Shown here piece after piece: positions 2-41,332 of a DNA stretch of 64,000 nucleotides. The notes beneath the pieces are model-generated. The model did not search any database and was not told where the DNA came from. It worked only from the letters and a program-made list of their open reading frames with translations. The position numbers were made by a program, and so were the translations under genes. Position 1 is the stretch's first letter. Each line of letters starts with the position of its first letter. This DNA comes from Actinomycetota bacterium (lineage in GTDB: Bacteria > Actinomycetota > Rubrobacteria > Rubrobacterales > Rubrobacteraceae), in NCBI GenBank assembly GCA_902810695.1, contig CADDYV010000002.1:62001-126000 (forward strand), read 5' to 3'.

Positions 2-2023
2 GCTGGCGAGCATGTTCTCCAGAGAGTTTTCGGAGATCCGGTCGGCCTGTCGGCTCTCACATATGGCAACTCATCCTGGCTAACTCCCGCCTGCGGCGCG
101 CTTTTCCTGATCCTGGGGAGCATGCTTGTATTCCGCACGCTGCTTCACCCGCAGAGGCTCTACAGGATGCAAAGCCTTTGCCTCCTCGCTGGCGTCCTCG
201 TTCCGTGGGCGGCGACTGCAGCCTGCCAGTTCGGCCTGATCGCTCCAGCCGCCAGCCTCTATCTCGAAGCCGCGATCCTTGCGTTATCGGGATTCGCACT
301 CGCGCTGGCTCTCTTCAGATACCGGCTCCTGGATCTCTCACCGGTAGCATACGACCTGCTCATCGAGAACACGTGCGACGGTATGATCGTGCTCGATATG
401 CGAAAGCGGATTCTGGATATCAACCCCTCCGCCGAACGCATCATCGGGTATGCGGCCTCTCAGGTTCTGGGTAGGAGCTTCCGGGATATTATGTCGTCCC
501 GGTTGGGTCTGGCATCCGGGAAGAGGGGGCCGACGGGTACGTTTCCGGGACGCCCCGAGAACCAGGGCCGGGACCGCAGCGAGATAAAGCTCGGTGAAGG
601 AGAAGATGCCAGGTACTATGATGTAACGCTTTCCGCGCTCTACGGTCCCGGAGGCAGGCAAACCGGCCATCTCGTTATCCTGCACGAGACCACCGAACGC
701 AGACTCGTCGTCGAGAGGCTCGACCGCATGGCGCGCTACGATCCCCTGACCGGGCTGCCCAACCGCTCGTTTTTCTACGAGAAGCTGAGCCAGGAAATAC
801 TCCGCAACCGGAACCTGCTTGCCGTGCTCTTCCTCGATCTCGATCGCTTCAAGATCATCAACGACACGCTGGGCCACGAAGTGGGTGATCTGTTGCTCAA
901 AGAAGCAGCGAGCAGGCTGAGGTCCTCGCTCAGAGAGTATGACTTCGCGGCCCGGCTCGCCGGAGATGAATTTACCGTTATCCTGCCGGAAATCTCCGAT
1001 GTCTCCGATGTGGCCCTGATCGCCGATCAGATCATAGAGAGGTTCGCGGAGCCTTTCGAGATAGCTGGACATGAGCTTCTGGTCACGGCCAGCGTCGGGG
1101 CGTGCATCTGCCCCATTCACGGCAAGGATCCCTCTACGCTCGTGAAGAACGCGGACATCGCCATGTACCAGGCCAAAGCCGCGGGCAAGAACCGCTACGC
1201 ACTCCTCGAAGAGGCGCCGCTCGGATACCACACCAGACACCTGGAGTTCGAGGTCGAGCTCGCGCGAGCCATCGAGAATGACGAACTGCGCCTCTTCTAC
1301 CAGCCGGAGATAGAAACAGATACCGGTCAGGTGATCGGGGTCGAAGCGGTGCTGCGCTGGGAACACCCTGAACGCGGGCTTCTCAACCCGAAGGATTTTC
1401 TTCCGCTCGCAGAAGAGACGGGCCTCATCTCCTACATAGAATGGTGGGTTCTGCACGAGGCCTGCCGCCAGATGCGCTTCTGGCAGGAGTGGAACCCGGC
1501 CAACTCTCCGCTAACGTTAAGCGTAAACCTCTTCTCCCGGCACCTCTCGCATCCCGACCTGATGGGAGAGATCTCCTGTATTCTCGAAGAAACCGGGCTC
1601 TTGCCCGAGAGCCTGGTTCTCGGGCTCAAGGCGGAAGCCCTCGATGAAGATGCTCCCCTGACCACCGCGACCCTCCAGGCCCTTAAAAAACTCGGCGTCG
1701 GGCTCGCCGTAGAGGGATTCGGGGCCGGGCGCACCTCGCTCGTCGGGCTGAAAAGGCTGCCGCTGGACGTGCTGAAGCTCGATGGCTCTCTCACCTCCGG
1801 CATCGAGAGGGTGGACCAGAACGCGGAGATGATCTCGGCGGTCATCTCTCTGGGACATTCCCTGGGGCTCCGGGTGGTGGCAAAAAGGGTCGAGAATGTG
1901 CAGCAACTGGTGCGCCTCCGGGATATGGGCTGCGATGCCGTCCAGGGAAAGCACTTCTCGGAGCTACTCTCCCGCCAGGAAGCCTCGGCGTTCCTCGTAT
2001 TCGGACCTTACGACCGGCTGTAG
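2..2023 (+). CDS. Membrane sensor PAS-GGDEF-EAL protein (5' partial)
   Basis: The reading frame is open from base 2, so the start lies left of the window; the first ATG at 122 is internal. The visible N-terminus is hydrophobic with several membrane spans ending near FRYRLLDLSP, as in 7TM-type sensor inputs. A PAS domain follows (about bases 350-720), then a GGDEF domain with the signature AGDEF (near 961) and an EAL domain. The GGDEF signature and substrate-site residues look usable, so diguanylate cyclase activity is plausible. The EAL domain is degenerate: the canonical DDFGTG loop reads VEGFGAG (about 1706-1726) and the AEGVE loop reads AKRVE, removing metal-binding acids. It probably does not hydrolyse c-di-GMP. 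The gene is convergent with the NlpC/P60 gene. Confidence 0.9.
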   Translation, partial: AGEHVLQRVFGDPVGLSALTYGNSSWLTPACGALFLILGSMLVFRTLLHPQRLYRMQSLCLLAGVLVPWAATAACQFGLIAPAASLYLEAAILALSGFALALALFRYRLLDLSPVAYDLLIENTCDGMIVLDMRKRILDINPSAERIIGYAASQVLGRSFRDIMSSRLGLASGKRGPTGTFPGRPENQGRDRSEIKLGEGEDARYYDVTLSALYGPGGRQTGHLVILHETTERRLVVERLDRMARYDPLTGLPNRSFFYEKLSQEILRNRNLLAVLFLDLDRFKIINDTLGHEVGDLLLKEAASRLRSSLREYDFAARLAGDEFTVILPEISDVSDVALIADQIIERFAEPFEIAGHELLVTASVGACICPIHGKDPSTLVKNADIAMYQAKAAGKNRYALLEEAPLGYHTRHLEFEVELARAIENDELRLFYQPEIETDTGQVIGVEAVLRWEHPERGLLNPKDFLPLAEETGLISYIEWWVLHEACRQMRFWQEWNPANSPLTLSVNLFSRHLSHPDLMGEISCILEETGLLPESLVLGLKAEALDEDAPLTTATLQALKKLGVGLAVEGFGAGRTSLVGLKRLPLDVLKLDGSLTSGIERVDQNAEMISAVISLGHSLGLRVVAKRVENVQQLVRLRDMGCDAVQGKHFSELLSRQEASAFLVFGPYDRL

Positions 2024-24825: not shown

Positions 24826-26928
24826 CTAGCTGTGGATCTCCGCAAGAAGTCTGGACATGGCCTCTTCGGGGAGCGGCTTGGCGATGTAGTAGCCCTGGGC
24901 TTTATCACATCCCAGCTCTTTGAGCTGCTCCAGTTGTCCGGCATTCTCCACCCCTTCGCCCACGGCTCGCATACCCAGGGCGTGCGCGAGGTCCACCATC
25001 ATCTGCAACATCGCCGCGGGCTCGACATCTCCGCTGATCTCGTCCAGGAAGGATCGGTCTATCTTCAAGTCGTCTACCGGGAAGTGCTTGAAGACGTTCA
25101 TGGACGAGTAACCGGTCCCGAAGTCGTCTATGGCGAGCCGCACTCCAGCTTGTTTGAGTTCTCGCAGAACCCCGGCTGCGTACCGCACGTCGCGCATTAC
25201 CACGCTCTCGGTAACCTCCAGTTGCAGGCATTGCGGCTCCAGTCCGGTCTCTGCGAGCGTCCGCAAGATCGTCTCGACGAGATCCGGCTGCTGAAACTGC
25301 TTCGCCGAGAGGTTGACGCTTACCACGAGCGGATGCTCCTGGGGATAGCGCACCTGCCACTCGCGCGCCTTCCGGCAGGCTTCTCTCAAGACCCACCGGC
25401 CAATGGGCACGATAAGGTCAGTCTCCTCGGCAACCGGGATGAACGATCTCGGCGAGATCAGACCATATCCGGGCCGATCCCAGCGCAGGAGCGTCTCGAA
25501 ACCGGCGATGCGACCGCTCTCCAGCAGAATCTCGGGCTGGTAGTAGAGCCTGAACTCTTCCGCCCCTACGGCACGCTGCAGATCACGCTCCAACTCCAGG
25601 CGTTCGAGAGCGAGGGCGTTCATGGCCGGGTCGAAAACCTCGTAGCGCGCCTTGCCTTCCTGCTTGGCCCTGTACATCGCCGCATCCGCATCGCGCAGCA
25701 TCTCCCCCGGTCCGTAACCGGGGGTGCTCACGCAGATCCCGATACTGGTCGAGACCGAAACCCTGTGGCCCTCGATATCGAAAGGCTCTCGCATCTCGTC
25801 TGTGATCCGCTCGGCGACCCGGATCGCCTGCCTGACGTCGGCGATGTCCTCCAGGAGGACGGTAAACTCGTCGCCGCCCAGACGGGCGATAGTATCCTCG
25901 GTTCGCAGGCATCCCTGCAGGCGGGCGGCCACCGAAACCAGTAGCTTGTCGCCCGCCTTGTGTCCCAGCGAGTCATTCACGTCTTTGAAGCCGTCCAGGT
26001 CCATAAACAGAACCGCCACATAGTCTTCGCGGCGGTCTGCGCGCGCGAGGGCCCGCTCCAGGTTCTCGTTGAACAACGCACGGTTCGGCAGTCCTGTCAG
26101 AGGGTCGTGGGTGGCCTCGTGCTCCAGGCGCTCCTGTAGTCTCTTACGCTCGGTTACGTCCTGGACCTGAGAGATGAAGTACAGCGGCTCACCCGAAGCG
26201 TCGCGTACCAGGGAGATGCTGAGCGAACCCCATACCACGTGCCCATCTCTATGGAGATAACGTTTCTCGATCTGGCAGGTCTCGGCCTCTCCGGCCAGGA
26301 GCTCGCGCAGGCAGTCCAGGGTAGCCTCCATGTCCTCCGGGTGGGTAATATCCTCAAAGGTTCGGGCGAGAAGCTCCTCTTCGGCATAGCCGAGGATCTT
26401 GCACAGAGCCTGGTTGACCTGCAGAAAGCGCCCGCCGGGAGCCGTCAGGGCCATCCCGATAGCCGCGTTCTCGAAGGCGCTCCTGAAGCGCTCCTCGGCC
26501 TCGCGCAGCTCATCCTCGGTCCGCTTGCTCTCGATGGCGTAGCGGATAGAGCGATCCAGGAGCGGCGCATCGAATTCTCCTTTGACCAGGTAATCCGAAG
26601 CCCCGGCCTCCATCGCTTCAAGGTCCACCGTCCGGTCTCCCTGGCCGGTCAGTATGACCACCGGAGTCCTATCACCGCTCTCTACGACCTCTCTTAACAG
26701 CTCGATCCCGCTGCGCGCGCCCAGGCGGTAGTCGAAGAGGTAGGCGTCGAAGGTATCCCGCCGCATGGCGTCGAGCGCCGCCTCGCAGTCAGGAGCCCAT
26801 ACCAGATCAAAGCTGGTTCCCTCGATCTCGGAGAGCAGGTCTTCGGTTATGAGATAATCGTCCTCGTCATCCTCGACGAGGAGCACCCTTAGATGATGGA
26901 CATCCATATTATTAGCCTTCGAGCCCAT
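24826..26928 (-). CDS. Response regulator with PAS-GGDEF-EAL output
   Basis: A 700-residue cytoplasmic protein. The receiver domain (about residues 13-135) has the phospho-acceptor Asp in YLFDYRLGA. A PAS domain (about 145-270) precedes a GGDEF domain with intact RLGGDEFTVLL and an EAL domain with GFETLLRW, VNLSAKQF, AIDDFGTGYSS and GEGVEN. Both c-di-GMP active sites look functional, so it can make or degrade the messenger on phosphorylation. The start may be ATG 26928 or 26907. It overlaps the preceding regulator by 17 nt in the same operon. Confidence 0.93.
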   Translation of the reverse strand: MGSKANNMDVHHLRVLLVEDDEDDYLITEDLLSEIEGTSFDLVWAPDCEAALDAMRRDTFDAYLFDYRLGARSGIELLREVVESGDRTPVVILTGQGDRTVDLEAMEAGASDYLVKGEFDAPLLDRSIRYAIESKRTEDELREAEERFRSAFENAAIGMALTAPGGRFLQVNQALCKILGYAEEELLARTFEDITHPEDMEATLDCLRELLAGEAETCQIEKRYLHRDGHVVWGSLSISLVRDASGEPLYFISQVQDVTERKRLQERLEHEATHDPLTGLPNRALFNENLERALARADRREDYVAVLFMDLDGFKDVNDSLGHKAGDKLLVSVAARLQGCLRTEDTIARLGGDEFTVLLEDIADVRQAIRVAERITDEMREPFDIEGHRVSVSTSIGICVSTPGYGPGEMLRDADAAMYRAKQEGKARYEVFDPAMNALALERLELERDLQRAVGAEEFRLYYQPEILLESGRIAGFETLLRWDRPGYGLISPRSFIPVAEETDLIVPIGRWVLREACRKAREWQVRYPQEHPLVVSVNLSAKQFQQPDLVETILRTLAETGLEPQCLQLEVTESVVMRDVRYAAGVLRELKQAGVRLAIDDFGTGYSSMNVFKHFPVDDLKIDRSFLDEISGDVEPAAMLQMMVDLAHALGMRAVGEGVENAGQLEQLKELGCDKAQGYYIAKPLPEEAMSRLLAEIHS

Positions 26929-34324: not shown

Positions 34325-36466
34325 TCATTTGCCTAAATTCACGGTCCAGGTATTGGTGGCTGGGGTGGAATCTGCGTTACCCGCTGCGTCTATGGCCTGT
34401 ACCTTGAAGGTGTGCTGACCATCCTTCAACCCCGTGTACTTCACCGGTGAAGTGCAGGAGCTGAATGGGGCTCCATCCAGGCTGCACTTGAAGGTGGAGC
34501 CCTGCTCCGAGGCGGAGAAGGAGATGTCCGCCACTCTGCTCTTGACCGTACCGGAAGGAGCGGAGGTGATCGCCGTCTCCGGCGGCGTGGTATCTACTGT
34601 CCAGCTAACGCTCGCGGGCGTGGGATCGGTGTGACCAACGGCGTCTATCGCCCGTACCCGGAAGGTGTGCTGGCCCTCGGAGAGACTACTATAGCTCTGC
34701 GGGGAGGTGCAGGGAGTGAAAGCCGCACCATCCAGAGAACACTCGAACGTGGAGTTCTTTTCCGTAGAAGAGAAAGAGAAGGTTGCCGAGTTGCTTTTCA
34801 CCGTGCCCGAAGGACCCGAGGTAATGTTCGTGTCCGGTGGTGTGGCGTCAACCGTCCAGGCTGCGGCAGCGGGGGTGGGATCCACATTCCCCGAGGGATC
34901 TACGGCGGCCACCTTGAAGGTATGCTGACCATCTGAGAGGTTGGCGTAGTTCTGTGGCGAAGCGCAGGCGGTGAAGGGGGCTCCATCCAGAGAACACCGG
35001 AAGGTGGAGTTCACCTCTGTGGAAGAGAATGTAAAGCTTGCGGAGTTGCTGGTTACTGTGCCAGTCGGGCCGGAGTTTATCGTCGTATCCGGCGGCGTGG
35101 TATCAGCGGCAAGGCTCATGAAGTTGTGCAGGTAGTCGTGGACTCCGTTTGCGGGATCATCCGATGAAGCTAGAACCAGAAGTCCGCTTTTGCTGGTTAC
35201 GTTCTGGTCGGTGGAGGTGGGGTTGTCCGTATAGGAGTCAGCCGAGTTCCTGATAAACGGTGTCCCTTCGCCCGCCGCGAACGAGATGTTGTCCAGCGAG
35301 GTCTTCTTGTAGTAAATCGTCCGGGGCACAACCGTCCCGTCAGGCTGTGTATTTTGCAGCGGGGCTGCGGCGAAGACGTAGAGCTCGCGGTTCGTGGTGT
35401 CAATGAGCAGGATCGGGCGGGTGAAGTCGTCCTGCACCGTTCCGAAGACGTACTTGGAGAAGCTCCCATCCTGCCCCAGCACCGACACGTAGATCAGAGG
35501 CGCGTTGGGGTCCGGGTTCGCACCGTCGTTGTAGGAGGTCTTGGTTACCGCGAACACCCTGCCACTCGGGTCGGTCTCGAGAGATTTGAGGTTGATGTGG
35601 TCATCGGCACTCCTGGCACCCTGCACCGGAGCGGGGTACTGCTGCCAGCTCTGGTCTGAGGTACCGTCGGTATGCGAGGCGAAGTAGATGGCCCCGTCGT
35701 TGTGGTTGGACCACATGATCCCAACCTTTGGCGCCTGGGTCTTGAGATCGAAGGCGGTTATGGCCGAGATGTCGTCGAGGCTGAGGTTGTTGGCGCCCGC
35801 AACAGGGAGTGCATACGCCTGCCCCCAGCTAGAGTCGCTTCCCTGGGAATGGTTTACGTAGACCTCGTTGAACTGTCCGGTGGGATCGGGCTCGGTAAAG
35901 GTCGCCCACAGTTCACCGGTCGAGTCCTTGGTCAGCGTGATCGCCTCCATGGGTCCGGTCCCGATCACGGTCGGAAACCCGCTATCGAGGGTCCAGCTCT
36001 GGGTCGTCGGATTGTAGCTGTAGCGTCTGAGGTAAGCGTTGTGATCCGTCCCAGAAGAGCTGACTACCGAGTCGGCCACGTAGAGATGCGTGCCATCCCA
36101 CAGGGTGTCGGACTTGGTATTGTTGCGCTTGTCCACGACTACCCCGGTATCCGACCAGCTCTGGGTGGCTTTGTCGAAGCGGTAGATGTCGAAGTTGGTT
36201 GTGGCGGAGTTAAAGAGAATCCCCCACCAGGTGCCATCAGAGGTGTACCAGAGCTTGTCCTGCGGCTTGTTGCCGGTGGGAGAAGCGGTGCCGCTCCCGT
36301 AGGAGAAGTCCCGGTAGCCTACGTCGGTCGTATCTGCCTGCGCTTTGGGAATACTGCCTCGTAAGCCAAAACCAGCAAACATCGCCATCAACAGAACAGC
36401 AACCGACGTTAACCGGAGGAGCCGAGCGGTGCGTTCGCTGCTCGACAAGTAGCCCGATTTATTCAA
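34325..36466 (-). CDS. Secreted beta-propeller/Ig-repeat protein A
   Basis: The start TTG at 36466 is chosen to match the paralogue and follows AAAGGAG. It encodes 713 residues: a signal peptide (LLMAMFAGFGL, cleavage after PKAQA), a propeller-like domain of about 440 residues with repeated WYTSDGTWWGILF and DDFTRPILLID type strands, and three Ig-like repeats of about 83 residues. Each repeat opens with TPPDT and contains STF(R/E/K)CSLDGA, (K/N)Y or SY, L-(S/K)-(D/E)-GQHTF and ends TWTVD or similar. Paired cysteines occur once per repeat, consistent with a disulfide. It has no membrane anchor or LPxTG. Likely an extracellular surface or matrix protein. Confidence 0.85.
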   Translation of the reverse strand: MNKSGYLSSSERTARLLRLTSVAVLLMAMFAGFGLRGSIPKAQADTTDVGYRDFSYGSGTASPTGNKPQDKLWYTSDGTWWGILFNSATTNFDIYRFDKATQSWSDTGVVVDKRNNTKSDTLWDGTHLYVADSVVSSSGTDHNAYLRRYSYNPTTQSWTLDSGFPTVIGTGPMEAITLTKDSTGELWATFTEPDPTGQFNEVYVNHSQGSDSSWGQAYALPVAGANNLSLDDISAITAFDLKTQAPKVGIMWSNHNDGAIYFASHTDGTSDQSWQQYPAPVQGARSADDHINLKSLETDPSGRVFAVTKTSYNDGANPDPNAPLIYVSVLGQDGSFSKYVFGTVQDDFTRPILLIDTTNRELYVFAAAPLQNTQPDGTVVPRTIYYKKTSLDNISFAAGEGTPFIRNSADSYTDNPTSTDQNVTSKSGLLVLASSDDPANGVHDYLHNFMSLAADTTPPDTTINSGPTGTVTSNSASFTFSSTEVNSTFRCSLDGAPFTACASPQNYANLSDGQHTFKVAAVDPSGNVDPTPAAAAWTVDATPPDTNITSGPSGTVKSNSATFSFSSTEKNSTFECSLDGAAFTPCTSPQSYSSLSEGQHTFRVRAIDAVGHTDPTPASVSWTVDTTPPETAITSAPSGTVKSRVADISFSASEQGSTFKCSLDGAPFSSCTSPVKYTGLKDGQHTFKVQAIDAAGNADSTPATNTWTVNLGK

Positions 36467-36523
36467 AGCCAAAACTCCTTTCTTCAAAAGGTGAGGATCA
36501 TCCCCCAACTAGTCCACTGCAAA

Positions 36524-36703
36524 AGGAAACCGGCCACGGATTTCTAAAATCCGGTAGCCGGTTGCACCATTGGCTCTCCCTACCTCAGGTGCCCATTTTT
36601 ACGAGGCAGGAATCTTAGCTTCTACCTGATGACCAAGTTTTGCATAGTGGATGTTAGTGGAGCCCGGCTCCCGATACTATTGCCCACATGGCGTATTTCT
36701 GAT
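36524..36703 (-). ncRNA. Conserved leader RNA A with terminator (attenuator or riboswitch candidate)
   Basis: This block lies between the promoter area and the start of protein A and is repeated, nearly colinear, at 39534-39715 before protein B. Read on the minus strand it contains the hairpins GGAGC-CGG-GCTCC (36671-36659) and ACTTG-GTCAT-CAGGT (36638-36624), a long-range GCACC/GGTGC pairing (36592-36588 with 36568-36564), and the intrinsic terminator at 36562-36529. The last base pair changes in a pair-preserving way between copies. No known riboswitch consensus was recognised. Confidence 0.6.
36529..36562 (-). terminator. Terminator inside leader A
   Basis: On the minus strand ACCGGCTACCGGATTT pairs, with one bulge, to AAATCCGTGGCCGGT around TAG and is followed by TTCCTTTT. 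It lies about 63 nt before the TTG start, where it would stop transcription unless the leader refolds. Confidence 0.75.
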
Positions 36704-36742
36704 TTAAGTCAAAGCGCCGCGAATACTCCACATGGCCTAACC

Positions 36743-37018
36743 CGGATGGCGTATTTCCTGGCCGAAGTCGTTGCCTTGATAATTCCCGCTCTTGGAGCCC
36801 GGACCACTTGAGGGAGCGGTTTCTCTGATGATGCGCTCGTCCATCTTATCCCAGCGTCCGAGATTATGGGGGCGGAGCTATATGTGCTCCGCCCCTCTGA
36901 GCGACCATTCCCTCGCCCTCGCGCGATCGGGGCAGGTCCTGAAATTGTCTACCTGTGCGCCATCTCTGGCCTTCTCATATGTCTCGGTCCGATGGGTAAC
37001 ACAAGCTCGATGTCTCCT
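36743..37018 (-). other. Spacer between the two secreted-protein genes
   Basis: No gene. It contains a terminator hairpin for protein B (36869-36895) and a second copy of the ATACGCCAT element (near 36743-36753) also found inside leader A. Promoter elements for protein A must lie here or in the distal leader, but none is convincing. Confidence 0.5.
36869..36895 (-). terminator. Terminator after secreted protein B
   Basis: GGGGCGGAGC and GCTCCGCCCC form a 10-bp stem with a 7-nt loop, about 124 nt beyond the protein B stop codon. Confidence 0.65.
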
Positions 37019-39472
37019 CTACCTTCTGACCACCTTGAAGAACCACACCCTGGAAGCCTGGTTGCCAGCCTTATCCTTGACTATGACATTCACGGCCTTC
37101 TTGCCGAGAGACATCCGCTTCGACGGGATGTACCTCAAGTGGCCGTTGGCCGGGTTGTAGCTGAACTCGCGCCTGGGAACGACCTTGTGCGCCACCTTGA
37201 GGGTTATCTCTCCTTTGGAGAGTTGGGTGAGGTTGTCTTTGACCGTGGCCCTGATCAGGGGCGTCCTGTCGGCAGTTTTCACTTTGGGGAAGAGCTGGAT
37301 TATCGAGGGTTTGCGGGTGTCCACGATCCAGGCACGGGTAGCCGGGGTGGAATCCACATTACCTGCCACATCTACCGCCCGCACCTTGAAGAGATGTCTG
37401 CCCTGCTTCAAACCCGAGTAGCTCTGCGGCGAAGCGCAGGAAGTAAATATCTTCCCGTCTATACTGCACTCGAACTTAGAGCCTCTATCATTGGAGGAGA
37501 ACCGGAACGCCGCCGAGGTGTTCCTCGTAAAGCCCTTCGGTCCGAAGTTGATCTTCGTATCCGGTGCGGCAGTATCCACCGTCCAGGTCTCGGTCGCAGG
37601 AGTGGAATCCACGTTACCCGCCGCATCTATCGCTACCACCCTGAACTTATGGTTGCCGTCACTGAGGTTGGTGTAGTCCTGCGGCGAGGTACAGTCGCTG
37701 GGGGCCGCCCCATCCAGGCTGCACTTGAAGGTGGAGCCCTGCTCCGAGGCGGAGAAGGAGATGCTTGCCGAGTTGTCCCTGGTTATGCCAGATGGAGCAG
37801 AGTTTATTGTCGTCTCCGGCGGCGTGGTGTCAACAGTCCACTTGCGGCTGTCCGGGCTCGGGTCAACGCTGCCCGAGGAGTTGATCGCCTCTACCGTGAA
37901 GGTATGCTGACCATCGGAAAGGTTGGTGTAGTCCTGCGGCGAGGTACAGTCGCTGGGGGCCGCCCCGTCGAGGCCGCACTTGAATGTAGAGTTCGGCTGC
38001 GTGGATGTGAAGGTGAAGCTGGCCGAGGCGCTGTTCACCGTGCCCGAAGGTCCGGAGGCGATTGTCGTGTCCGGCGCGGGGACCGGGGCAATGTCTATAA
38101 AGTTGTGCAGGTAATCGTGAACGTTGTTGGCGGGGTCATCCGAGGACGCCTCGACGAGAAGGCCGCTGGTCGCATTCACACTCTGGTCCGTCGAAGTGGG
38201 GTTGTCCGTGTACAGGTCGGCAGAGTTCCTTATAAACGGCGTGCCGAGGTCTGGGGAACCGGGCTGCTCCTGGGGGAAGGAGATGTTGTCCAGCGAGGTT
38301 TTCTTGTAGTAGATCGCCCTGGGCACGATGGTCCCGTCGGGCTGAACATTGTTCAACGGCGCGGAAGCGAAGACGTAGAGGTCGCGGTTCTGGTCGTCTA
38401 TCATCAGGATTGGACGGGTGAAGTCGTCCTGCACCGTGCCGAAGGTGTACTGAGAGAAGCTATTATCCTGCTTGAAGACCAGAACCTTGATCAGCGGCGC
38501 GGTAGGATCGGGATTCGGCGTGTTGTTGAGAGAGGTCTTGACGACGGCGAAGACCCTTCCGCTCGCGTCAGACTGAAGCGACTTGAGGTTGATGTGGTCA
38601 TCGGGGACTTTCGGTCCCTGCTCCGCCGGATATTCCTGCCAGTTCTGGTCTGAGGTGCCGTCAGTGTGGGTGGCGAAGTACATCGCCCCATCGTTCTGAT
38701 TGGACCACATCACCCCGATCTTGGGCGCCGCCGTGCTCTGATCGAAGGAGACTATCGCCGAGATGTCGTCGGGACTGAGGTCGTTAGCGCCGGTGTCTAC
38801 CGGGAGTGCGAAGGGAGTACCCCAACTTGTATCGTCGCTACCCTGGGAGTGGTTGACGTAGACCGTGCCCACGGTGCCGTCGTTCTGGGTAAAGGTAACC
38901 CACAGCTCGCCGGTCGAGTCCTTGGTCAGCGTGATCGCCTCCATCTGCCCGCTTCCGACCACGACCGGGAAGCCGGCATCGGGAGTATACGTCCGGGTCT
39001 GCTGGTGGTAGCTGTAGCGGTAGAGGAATGCAGGCTGCCCTGCGCCCGCGGCGGAAGCTACGGCCGAGGCCACGTAGAGATGCGTCCCGTCCCACAGGGT
39101 GTCTACCTTGGCGTTGTTGCGGGCGTCTACAGGTATTCCCGTATCCGACCAGCTCTGACTCTGCTTATCGAAGCGGTAGATGTCGAATTTACCGGTGTTG
39201 CCGTTGAAGAGCACGCCCCACCAGGTTCCGTCAGGTGTGTACCACAGCTTGCTCTGGGGTTTGTTCCCGGTAGGGGAAGCCGTGAGGCCGCTTCCATTGG
39301 GCCCCGCGTAGGAGAAGTCCTGGTAGCCCACATTGGTTGTGTCCGCCTGCGCCTTGGGAATACTACCCCCCAACCCAAAGCCAGCAAACACCGCCAACAA
39401 CAGGGCAACCCAAGCTAACCGGAGCAACTGAGCAGTGTGCGCACTGCTCGATAAGCGGATCTCCTTATTCAA
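37019..39472 (-). CDS. Secreted beta-propeller/Ig-repeat protein B
   Basis: An 817-residue paralogue of protein A in tandem. It starts at TTG after AAAGGGG. The signal peptide (LLAVFAGFGL, PKAQA) and propeller domain align with protein A along their whole length. Three Ig-like repeats (about residues 490-740) again carry C-x-LDGA-type signatures (KCGLDGAAP, KCSLDGAAP, ECSIDGKIF). A fourth C-terminal domain of about 95 residues, absent from protein A, runs from KPSIIQLFPKVKT to the end (VWFFKVVRR) and resembles a bacterial Ig/cadherin-like module. Probably a cell-surface or matrix protein. Confidence 0.85.
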   Translation of the reverse strand: MNKEIRLSSSAHTAQLLRLAWVALLLAVFAGFGLGGSIPKAQADTTNVGYQDFSYAGPNGSGLTASPTGNKPQSKLWYTPDGTWWGVLFNGNTGKFDIYRFDKQSQSWSDTGIPVDARNNAKVDTLWDGTHLYVASAVASAAGAGQPAFLYRYSYHQQTRTYTPDAGFPVVVGSGQMEAITLTKDSTGELWVTFTQNDGTVGTVYVNHSQGSDDTSWGTPFALPVDTGANDLSPDDISAIVSFDQSTAAPKIGVMWSNQNDGAMYFATHTDGTSDQNWQEYPAEQGPKVPDDHINLKSLQSDASGRVFAVVKTSLNNTPNPDPTAPLIKVLVFKQDNSFSQYTFGTVQDDFTRPILMIDDQNRDLYVFASAPLNNVQPDGTIVPRAIYYKKTSLDNISFPQEQPGSPDLGTPFIRNSADLYTDNPTSTDQSVNATSGLLVEASSDDPANNVHDYLHNFIDIAPVPAPDTTIASGPSGTVNSASASFTFTSTQPNSTFKCGLDGAAPSDCTSPQDYTNLSDGQHTFTVEAINSSGSVDPSPDSRKWTVDTTPPETTINSAPSGITRDNSASISFSASEQGSTFKCSLDGAAPSDCTSPQDYTNLSDGNHKFRVVAIDAAGNVDSTPATETWTVDTAAPDTKINFGPKGFTRNTSAAFRFSSNDRGSKFECSIDGKIFTSCASPQSYSGLKQGRHLFKVRAVDVAGNVDSTPATRAWIVDTRKPSIIQLFPKVKTADRTPLIRATVKDNLTQLSKGEITLKVAHKVVPRREFSYNPANGHLRYIPSKRMSLGKKAVNVIVKDKAGNQASRVWFFKVVRR

Positions 39473-39533
39473 AGCAAAAGCCCCTTTCTTTATTAACGCC
39501 GAAGACCATCCCCCAGCCTCTGTCCACTACCAA

Positions 39534-39715
39534 AGGAAAACCGGCCACGGATTTCTAAAATCCGGTAGCCGGTTGCACCACTGGCTCTCCCTACCCCAGG
39601 TGCCCATCTTCAACAGAGCAGGGATCTTAGCCTCTACCTGATGACCAGGTTTTGCATAGTGGATGTTAGTGGAGCCCGGCTCCCAGCACTATTGCCCACA
39701 TGGCGTATTTCTGAT
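39534..39715 (-). ncRNA. Conserved leader RNA B with terminator (attenuator or riboswitch candidate)
   Basis: The second copy of the leader found at 36524-36703. On the minus strand: GGAGC-CGG-GCTCC (39683-39671), ACCTG-GTCAT-CAGGT (39650-39636), GCACC/GGTGC (39603-39599 with 39579-39575) and the terminator at 39573-39540. Loop sequences (ATGCAAAAC, GCTAAGAT, GGTAGGGAGAGCC, GGTGCAACCGGCTACC) are strictly kept while the stretch around 39610-39620 diverges, as expected for a folded RNA. Confidence 0.6.
39540..39573 (-). terminator. Terminator inside leader B
   Basis: The 34-nt hairpin is identical to that of leader A (ACCGGCTACCGGATTT with AAATCCGTGGCCGGT), followed by TTTCCTTT. It lies about 68 nt before the TTG start. 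Confidence 0.75.
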
Positions 39716-39734
39716 CAGGGCCAGGTGCTTCGAA

Positions 39735-39750
39735 TAGGCCATATGGCCTA
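39735..39750. promoter_or_regulatory. 16-bp perfect palindrome upstream of leader B
   Basis: TAGGCCATATGGCCTA. The corresponding place before leader A (36725-36740) keeps one half site (CATGGCCTA). It is a candidate protein operator. Confidence 0.4.
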
Positions 39751-39829
39751 TCCTACACGGACTACTCTTCCACTCGCCTTGGCAAGAAAGGCGCAACACA
39801 GGAAGACGTGTGGCGCCCGCCACCAGCAC

Positions 39830-41332
39830 TCAGCACGCCCCATCGCGGAGCACGACGCTCTTGACGGTGCGGGCCAGGATCACCAGATCCAGCCAGACGG
39901 ACCAGTCCCTGACGTAGTAGGCGTCCATCTTGACCCTCTCCTCGAAGGAAGAGCTGCTGCGCCCGCTAACCTGCCAGGGGCCCGTTATCCCCGGAGACAC
40001 CCTGAGGATCTCCCTTTGTGTACCCCCAATGTCGGATGATTCACGCGGCAGGTAGGGTCTTGGGCCCACCAAGCTCATCTCGCCGCGCAACACGTTCCAG
40101 AGCTGAGGCAACTCATCGAGACTGCTCTTGCGCAGAAAACGCCCTACGCGGGTGATGCGGGGGTCGTTGGTGAGCTTGTGGTATCTGGTGTATTCTTCGC
40201 GCGCCGCTGGATCCTCCGCGAGCAACTTTTGCAAAAGCACCTCGGAGTTTGGGACCATGGTTCGAAACTTCACACACTTGAAGAGCTGGTTGTCCTTGCC
40301 CATCCGCCAGTCTTTGTAGAAGATGGGTCTTCCCGACTCCAGGTACACTAACAAGGAGATCACCGCGATAAGCGGCACCGCCAGAACCGCTCCAAGCAGG
40401 GTAGCTACGAGGTCGAGGGCCCGCTTGGTTCTGAGCGCCCAGGGGTTTAGCAGGTTGTAGCGGATCTCCACCCCGAAGGTTCCCGCAAGATCCCGGGCGG
40501 TAACCGCGGAGTTGGTGATCCCACCGAGGTTGGGGATGATCATGACGTGGGAAAATTTGTCGCTGGCCCAATCAACGTATCTGGAGAGGCGCTCGCGGCG
40601 GGTATGGGGCATCGCGAAGATCGCGGTGTCAACCCCCAGAGTGCGCCCCGAGAACATCGCATCGCCGAGAGTTCCGCCGTAGGGCACGCCATCGAGCGAG
40701 CCTTTCGCCGGAGCCTGGCGGTTGTCGAAGATAGCCACGGGCCTGTAGCCCAGAGTCCACTCCCTTTCAAGAAGCTTCAAGAGCTCAACCCCGGTCTCTC
40801 CGTAGCCCAGAATCACAACCGGCTTGCCCCACAACCTAATCCTTCTCATCTGGCGCTTGATGAAGTAACGAACAAAAGGAGAGAGCACCAAAAGCCCTAT
40901 GAAGGTGGAGAAGATAACCAGCCTGGACATGTGACCAACAGTATGAGAGGCAAAGCCAAAAACCATCGTTACAGCCACAGCCATCCCCACCGCATAACTC
41001 TGGCGACGCAACTCTTCTGTCTGATCCAGGCCATACCCCGGATACAATCCCAAAAGAGCCCTGATGGCTATCCACACCACGATGATGGGCACAATGCTGC
41101 TTACGGAGATCTCAGAGAGAGGATCATGCCCCCACACCCCGTGTATCACGATCGCCGCCTCAGAGACCAAAAATCCGAGCCCAAGGTCAGAGAAGAGCAG
41201 AGGCAGAGCACTCAGACGTCGCCTGCTAGGCTTTGCTTTAGCCCGGGGAGCCAACAGGTCTCTACCATCCCTCTCATCGTCATTGAGGGCGGTGGAAGCT
41301 TTCGCTTCTAAAGACGTCTCTGCTCGCTGCAT
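39830..41332 (-). CDS. Undecaprenyl-phosphate glycosylphosphotransferase (initiating enzyme)
   Basis: A 500-residue polyprenyl glycosylphosphotransferase of the WbaP/WcaJ type. Several N-terminal membrane helices precede a Rossmann-like CoA-binding region (VVILGYGETGVELLKLLE), one more membrane helix (LVATLLGAVLAVPLIAVISL) and the catalytic domain with FYKDWRMGKDNQLFKCVKFRTM, RKSSLDELPQLWNVLRGEMSLVGPRP and VSPGITGPWQVSGRS. It transfers a sugar-1-phosphate to undecaprenyl phosphate to begin repeat-unit assembly. GGAACGGAG precedes the ATG. Its promoter region carries the TTAACGCA-N3-TTAAC element. Confidence 0.93.
   Translation of the reverse strand: MQRAETSLEAKASTALNDDERDGRDLLAPRAKAKPSRRRLSALPLLFSDLGLGFLVSEAAIVIHGVWGHDPLSEISVSSIVPIIVVWIAIRALLGLYPGYGLDQTEELRRQSYAVGMAVAVTMVFGFASHTVGHMSRLVIFSTFIGLLVLSPFVRYFIKRQMRRIRLWGKPVVILGYGETGVELLKLLEREWTLGYRPVAIFDNRQAPAKGSLDGVPYGGTLGDAMFSGRTLGVDTAIFAMPHTRRERLSRYVDWASDKFSHVMIIPNLGGITNSAVTARDLAGTFGVEIRYNLLNPWALRTKRALDLVATLLGAVLAVPLIAVISLLVYLESGRPIFYKDWRMGKDNQLFKCVKFRTMVPNSEVLLQKLLAEDPAAREEYTRYHKLTNDPRITRVGRFLRKSSLDELPQLWNVLRGEMSLVGPRPYLPRESSDIGGTQREILRVSPGITGPWQVSGRSSSSFEERVKMDAYYVRDWSVWLDLVILARTVKSVVLRDGAC

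Follow-up and report, generated by a model that had tools for sequence, protein, structure and literature searches.

In a 64,000-nt stretch of Rubrobacteraceae DNA (the window), two colinear leader blocks (36524–36703 and 39534–39715) lie on the minus strand, like the genes they precede. An initial annotation, made from this stretch, described them as a possible new riboswitch or attenuator. The locus raises the question of which RNA class the leaders belong to, and how they would control the proteins encoded downstream. Their component features are listed in Table 1.

Table 1. Features of the leaders, the downstream genes, and c-di-GMP signaling (positions in the window unless a contig is given)
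Feature	Position	Strand	Basis
Aptamer of copy B (c-di-GMP-II riboswitch), 5′ of the 817-aa gene	39558–39644	−	RF01786, 68.8 bits, model 1–84/84, E 2.5e-13 for the window
Aptamer of copy A (c-di-GMP-II riboswitch), 5′ of the 713-aa gene	36547–36632	−	RF01786, 62.1 bits, model 1–84/84, E 1.9e-11 for the window
Intrinsic terminator hairpin, copy B	39540–39573	−	Sequence; about −23 kcal/mol including flank; 9/9 outer pairs and T tract
Intrinsic terminator hairpin, copy A, same as that of copy B	36529–36562	−	Sequence; folds
U-rich tract TTTCCTTT, 3′ of terminator B	39532–39539	−	Sequence
U-rich tract TTCCTTTT, 3′ of terminator A	36521–36528	−	Sequence
Conserved stretch 5′ of aptamer A	36633–36720	−	84% identical to copy B
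Corresponding upstream stretch, copy B	39645–39747	−	Motif AAATACGCCATGTGGG and CCATATGG palindrome
Repeated motif AAATACGCCATNTGGG, partly palindromic (CCATATGG)	36683–36698, 36741–36756, 39695–39710, 39732–39747		Just upstream of both leaders
Gene B, 817-aa protein	37019–39472	−	ORF; Pfam PF19077 (Big_13)
Gene A, 713-aa paralogue of gene B	34325–36466	−	ORF; BLASTP; Big_13
GGDEF domain in 700-aa ORF 24826–26928	25648–26115	−	PF00990, 174 bits
GGDEF domain in ORF 2–2023	731–1195	+	PF00990, 175 bits
c-di-GMP-I riboswitches, host genome (G000)	C33:33165–33244, C21:38385–38461, C22:51042–51118, C15:28186–28260		

Identification of the leaders as class II c-di-GMP riboswitches

The whole window was scanned against all 4227 Rfam families. 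Only two matches reached the threshold, both to RF01786 (c-di-GMP-II; curated gathering cut-off, 53.5 bits), each covering the full model on the minus strand; lower-scoring overlapping matches from the clan of RF01786 were left out of the match tables. No c-di-GMP-I, c-di-AMP, SAM, cobalamin, or other Rfam riboswitch reached the threshold in the window, and, apart from the lower-scoring clan matches, no further Rfam family reached an E value of 1 in the region 36400–39900. Segments UGGGCACC and GGUGCAACCG are found in both copies, with the required core GGUGCAACCG and GGGCAC in place, and their complementary GCACC and GGUGC presumably form the class II pseudoknot. Copy A has AAU instead of AGU at a conserved consensus position and scores below copy B.

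The initial annotation had found no resemblance to c-di-GMP riboswitches, and this statement does not hold. The Rfam search that it had named as a possible refutation of a new riboswitch returned full-length, above-cut-off matches to a known class, and the proposal is thereby refuted. A structured leader with a terminator is also what a new class or a protein-dependent attenuator would look like, but in view of these matches the probability of either is close to nil. Both leaders are ordinary members of the known class II c-di-GMP riboswitch, with c-di-GMP as the predicted ligand.

The aptamers might instead bind a related dinucleotide, as has been proposed for two variant Rfam families, c-di-GMP-II-GAG and c-di-GMP-II-GCG (named in PMC12452182). 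These variants belong to the same clan, whose lower-scoring matches overlap the leaders, and the deviation in copy A would also fit. However, the canonical family is the best model for both copies, the core is intact, and the genome encodes many GGDEF proteins; we consider a change of ligand very unlikely.

Downstream genes and conservation of the leaders

The riboswitch and terminator elements stand ahead of secreted-protein genes, as the initial annotation had it. The protein of gene B has an N-terminal signal-peptide-like segment and C-terminal Ig-like (Big_13) repeats, and GAAAGGGG is located ahead of its TTG start codon. Gene A starts at the TTG of 36466–36464, preceded by AAAGGAG, within a longer ORF that begins further upstream (to 36508). 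The two proteins share 66% identity (479/726 by BLASTP), and no sorting motif was seen in these Ig-repeat proteins. The genes adjoin a polysaccharide cluster consisting of a sugar transferase, dTDP-rhamnose enzymes, a glycosyltransferase, and a low-molecular-weight phosphatase. Based on the Big_13 repeats and this cluster, the secreted protein probably belongs to the cell surface or matrix and is made alongside the neighboring exopolysaccharide genes. No class II riboswitch was located near ten distantly related proteins of other phyla, indicating that the pairing of gene and riboswitch is local; a link between the riboswitch and this protein family across phyla was thus rejected (0/10).

The near-colinearity described earlier for the two blocks was borne out. 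The copies are 84.1% identical over the 88 nt on the 5′ side of the aptamer; the value is 88.5% for the aptamer itself and 91.3% for the remaining part of the terminator. By comparison, the spacer that separates the terminator from the start codon has 71.0% identity, and the initial 1.2 kb of the coding sequence 71.5%. The leaders are therefore conserved beyond the background of the duplication. DNA further upstream shows 47.6% identity between the copies. The two leaders probably arose with the tandem gene duplication and were then kept by selection. Because they precede tandem paralogues, one or both could instead be decayed leftovers of the duplication that regulate nothing, and some riboswitches of Clostridioides difficile are indeed non-functional (PMC6366702). 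The excess identity of the aptamer and terminator over the spacer and coding DNA argues against such decay, as do the scores of both copies above the cut-off, and we regard it as improbable.

The conserved stretch upstream of aptamer A presumably contains the promoter and the 5′ end of the transcript; no match to the sigma-70 consensus was found near the leaders, including this stretch. The repeated motif AAATACGCCATNTGGG is a possible protein-binding site and shows no genome-wide enrichment. In a genome-wide search with the upstream motif AATANGCCATRTGGSC, four of the six best sites precede the two leaders. As a genome-wide operator, this motif was rejected because its 11 sites showed no enrichment over the 14 of the reversed control. 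Both copies contain the ACYTG/CAGGT stem noted previously. This stem, however, shares sequence with the 5′ strand of P1, and its single change, from C-G to U-G, is one-sided. Among 32 related leaders, upstream hairpins of this type were no better than those obtained with swapped upstream sequences, and a general anti-P1 hairpin was therefore rejected.

Terminator overlap and proposed switching mechanism

The terminator hairpin ACCGGCTACCGGATTTTAGAAATCCGTGGCCGGT (34 nt) has the same letters at both sites, and its end lies 62 and 67 nt from the TTG start codon in the two copies, in agreement with the identical terminator and the spacing of about 65 nt reported at the outset. The terminator ACCGGCUACCGGAUUUUAGAAAUCCGUGGCCGGU begins within the aptamer and is followed by the U-rich tract. 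Its 5′ arm consists of the aptamer core ACCGG and the 3′ strand of P1, CUACC, which pairs with GGUAG in the aptamer. Both 5′ leaders thus carry an expression platform tied to the aptamer through its 3′ strand. Since the terminator and the aptamer use the same strand, the ligand-bound fold and termination should be mutually exclusive; a transcriptional ON switch is predicted from this. When P1 was enforced in a ligand-free model without the pseudoknot, the full terminator was lost and the fold became 9.5–11 kcal/mol less stable. The modeled preference for the terminator fold is as expected of a switch that defaults to OFF.

Here, we propose the switching mechanism of the two leaders based on this overlap. 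At low c-di-GMP, ACCGGCUACCGGAUUU would pair with AAAUCCGUGGCCGGU in the nascent RNA to form the intrinsic terminator, and transcription would end approximately 65 nt before the start codon. At high c-di-GMP, the aptamer would fold, and P1 (GGUAG/CUACC) and the conserved core would sequester the 5′ arm of the terminator. With this arm held, the terminator would not form and the secreted Ig-repeat protein would be made. Each leader is, with high probability, a class II c-di-GMP riboswitch that acts as a transcriptional ON switch for a secreted adhesin-like protein.

The direction and level of control deserve separate consideration. The direction can vary by species and is not transferable from one to another, needing a test in each context (PMC6366702), and riboswitches of Actinomycetota are reported to favor translational control (PMC12452182). 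The leaders might accordingly be OFF switches or translational switches that do not act via the overlapping terminator. On the other hand, the two copies and most relatives have a terminator that shares the 3′ strand of the aptamer. In the leaders it lies about 65 nt ahead of the start codon, and there was no sign of an anti-antiterminator. Control of this other kind is unlikely.

Class II riboswitches in related genomes

Of 39 genomes from the bacterial class of the host, 21 contain class II matches and 28 contain class I matches. Class II matches were also found in 117 of 396 genomes sampled from the phylum Actinomycetota, an indication that c-di-GMP riboswitches are common in some of its lineages. 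For 33 leaders from the host's class, the best nine-pair outer stem formed with the 3′ strand of the aptamer was scored, with a T tract required. At least eight of the nine outer pairs were found in 23 leaders (1.7 expected from shuffled downstream DNA) and all nine in 18 (0.1 expected), so the terminator design recurs among the relatives. The pairings of P1 and of the terminator were each above all 2000 partner shuffles, a control that ignores relatedness. Because the terminator arms in the partner shuffle were preselected for pairing, the shuffle of downstream DNA is the fairer control.

The class II targets in relatives include LytR-CpsA-Psr proteins, AAA-ATPases of the type also found behind such a match in the host genome, subtilases and glucose/sorbosone dehydrogenases (two genomes each), a family 2 glycosyltransferase, a prealbumin-like (SpaA) protein, and other proteins with signal-peptide-like starts. 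Across genera, several target types recur downstream of class II aptamers: LytR-CpsA-Psr with HTH_25 (leaders L004 and L041), the AAA-ATPase regulator (L006 and L035), subtilase (L022 and L036), and glucose/sorbosone dehydrogenase (L023 and L031). In leader L037 (G006:C458), the aptamer precedes the gene for a membrane protein of the MASE9 type. At the end of the contig, its frame continues into what seems to be the beginning of an HD-GYP domain; feedback on c-di-GMP turnover is possible there.

A cultured relative, Rubrobacter tropicus (G024), has a class II match. Two genomes of the host's family (G020 and G021) have 11 class II and 11–18 class I matches. Some of these are divergent pairs, for example G021:C72:4210 (minus) and 4525 (plus). 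Close same-strand class II pairs occur in other families of the phylum (G040:C22:94108 and 94369; G079:C201:10204 and 10322) and are possibly tandem riboswitches.

c-di-GMP signaling in the host genome

The assembly containing the window (3.59 Mb; Rubrobacteraceae, Actinomycetota) has six RF01786 matches, two above the cut-off and four weaker, and four c-di-GMP-I (RF01051) matches elsewhere (58–80 bits; cut-off, 35). Plasmid contigs of two genomes of this family are identical over 12 kb to plasmids of Rubrobacter indicoceani and Rubrobacter tropicus, which places the host in Rubrobacteraceae; a plasmid search with the sugar transferase yielded distant hits only, with the best one in Deinococcus. 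The other class II matches are followed by genes for a PAS histidine kinase and a LytR-CpsA-Psr protein, as well as for an antibiotic-biosynthesis-monooxygenase-like protein and an AAA-ATPase resembling a MalT/LuxR-type regulator. The genome encodes 15 GGDEF domains, and the two inside the window are a possible source of the ligand.

Rubrobacteraceae and much of the phylum may run a large, little-described RNA-based c-di-GMP regulon, with six class II and four class I matches in this genome and up to 11 and 18 in relatives. Such a regulon, with the terminator placed on the 3′ strand of the aptamer, would control secreted proteins, cell-wall polymer attachment, and regulators; the chances for and against it seem to us about even. 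In the open-access literature, as far as it was covered (incompletely), no paper joining c-di-GMP riboswitches with Rubrobacter was found. The leaders add no riboswitch class: the class is known, its members in Rubrobacteraceae are new, and the sole news is the number of such switches in the lineage. As a hypothesis for Rubrobacteraceae, c-di-GMP would turn on, through RNA, secreted Ig-repeat proteins encoded next to exopolysaccharide genes.

Comparison with known c-di-GMP riboswitches

The two leaders resemble RF01786 in the whole aptamer, the conserved core, and the place upstream of a gene with a terminator, whereas their outer P1 has mismatches and their host belongs to Rubrobacteraceae. 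The c-di-GMP-I riboswitches (RF01051) in the same genome sense the same ligand, but have an unrelated RNA fold that the two leaders do not match. In C. difficile, class II riboswitches are ON switches that work by controlling termination, and their targets are surface adhesins and pili (PMC11477304; PMC6366702). Cdi-2-4 before pilA1 and the CD2831 and CD3246 riboswitches of this species share with the present leaders the class II aptamer and surface-protein targets, and the relief of termination proposed for them (PMC6366702; PMC11477304) is predicted here. The targets differ in that the Ig-repeat proteins are unrelated and have no visible sorting motif. The control hypothesized for Rubrobacteraceae would follow the same logic as that of the adhesins in C. 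difficile.
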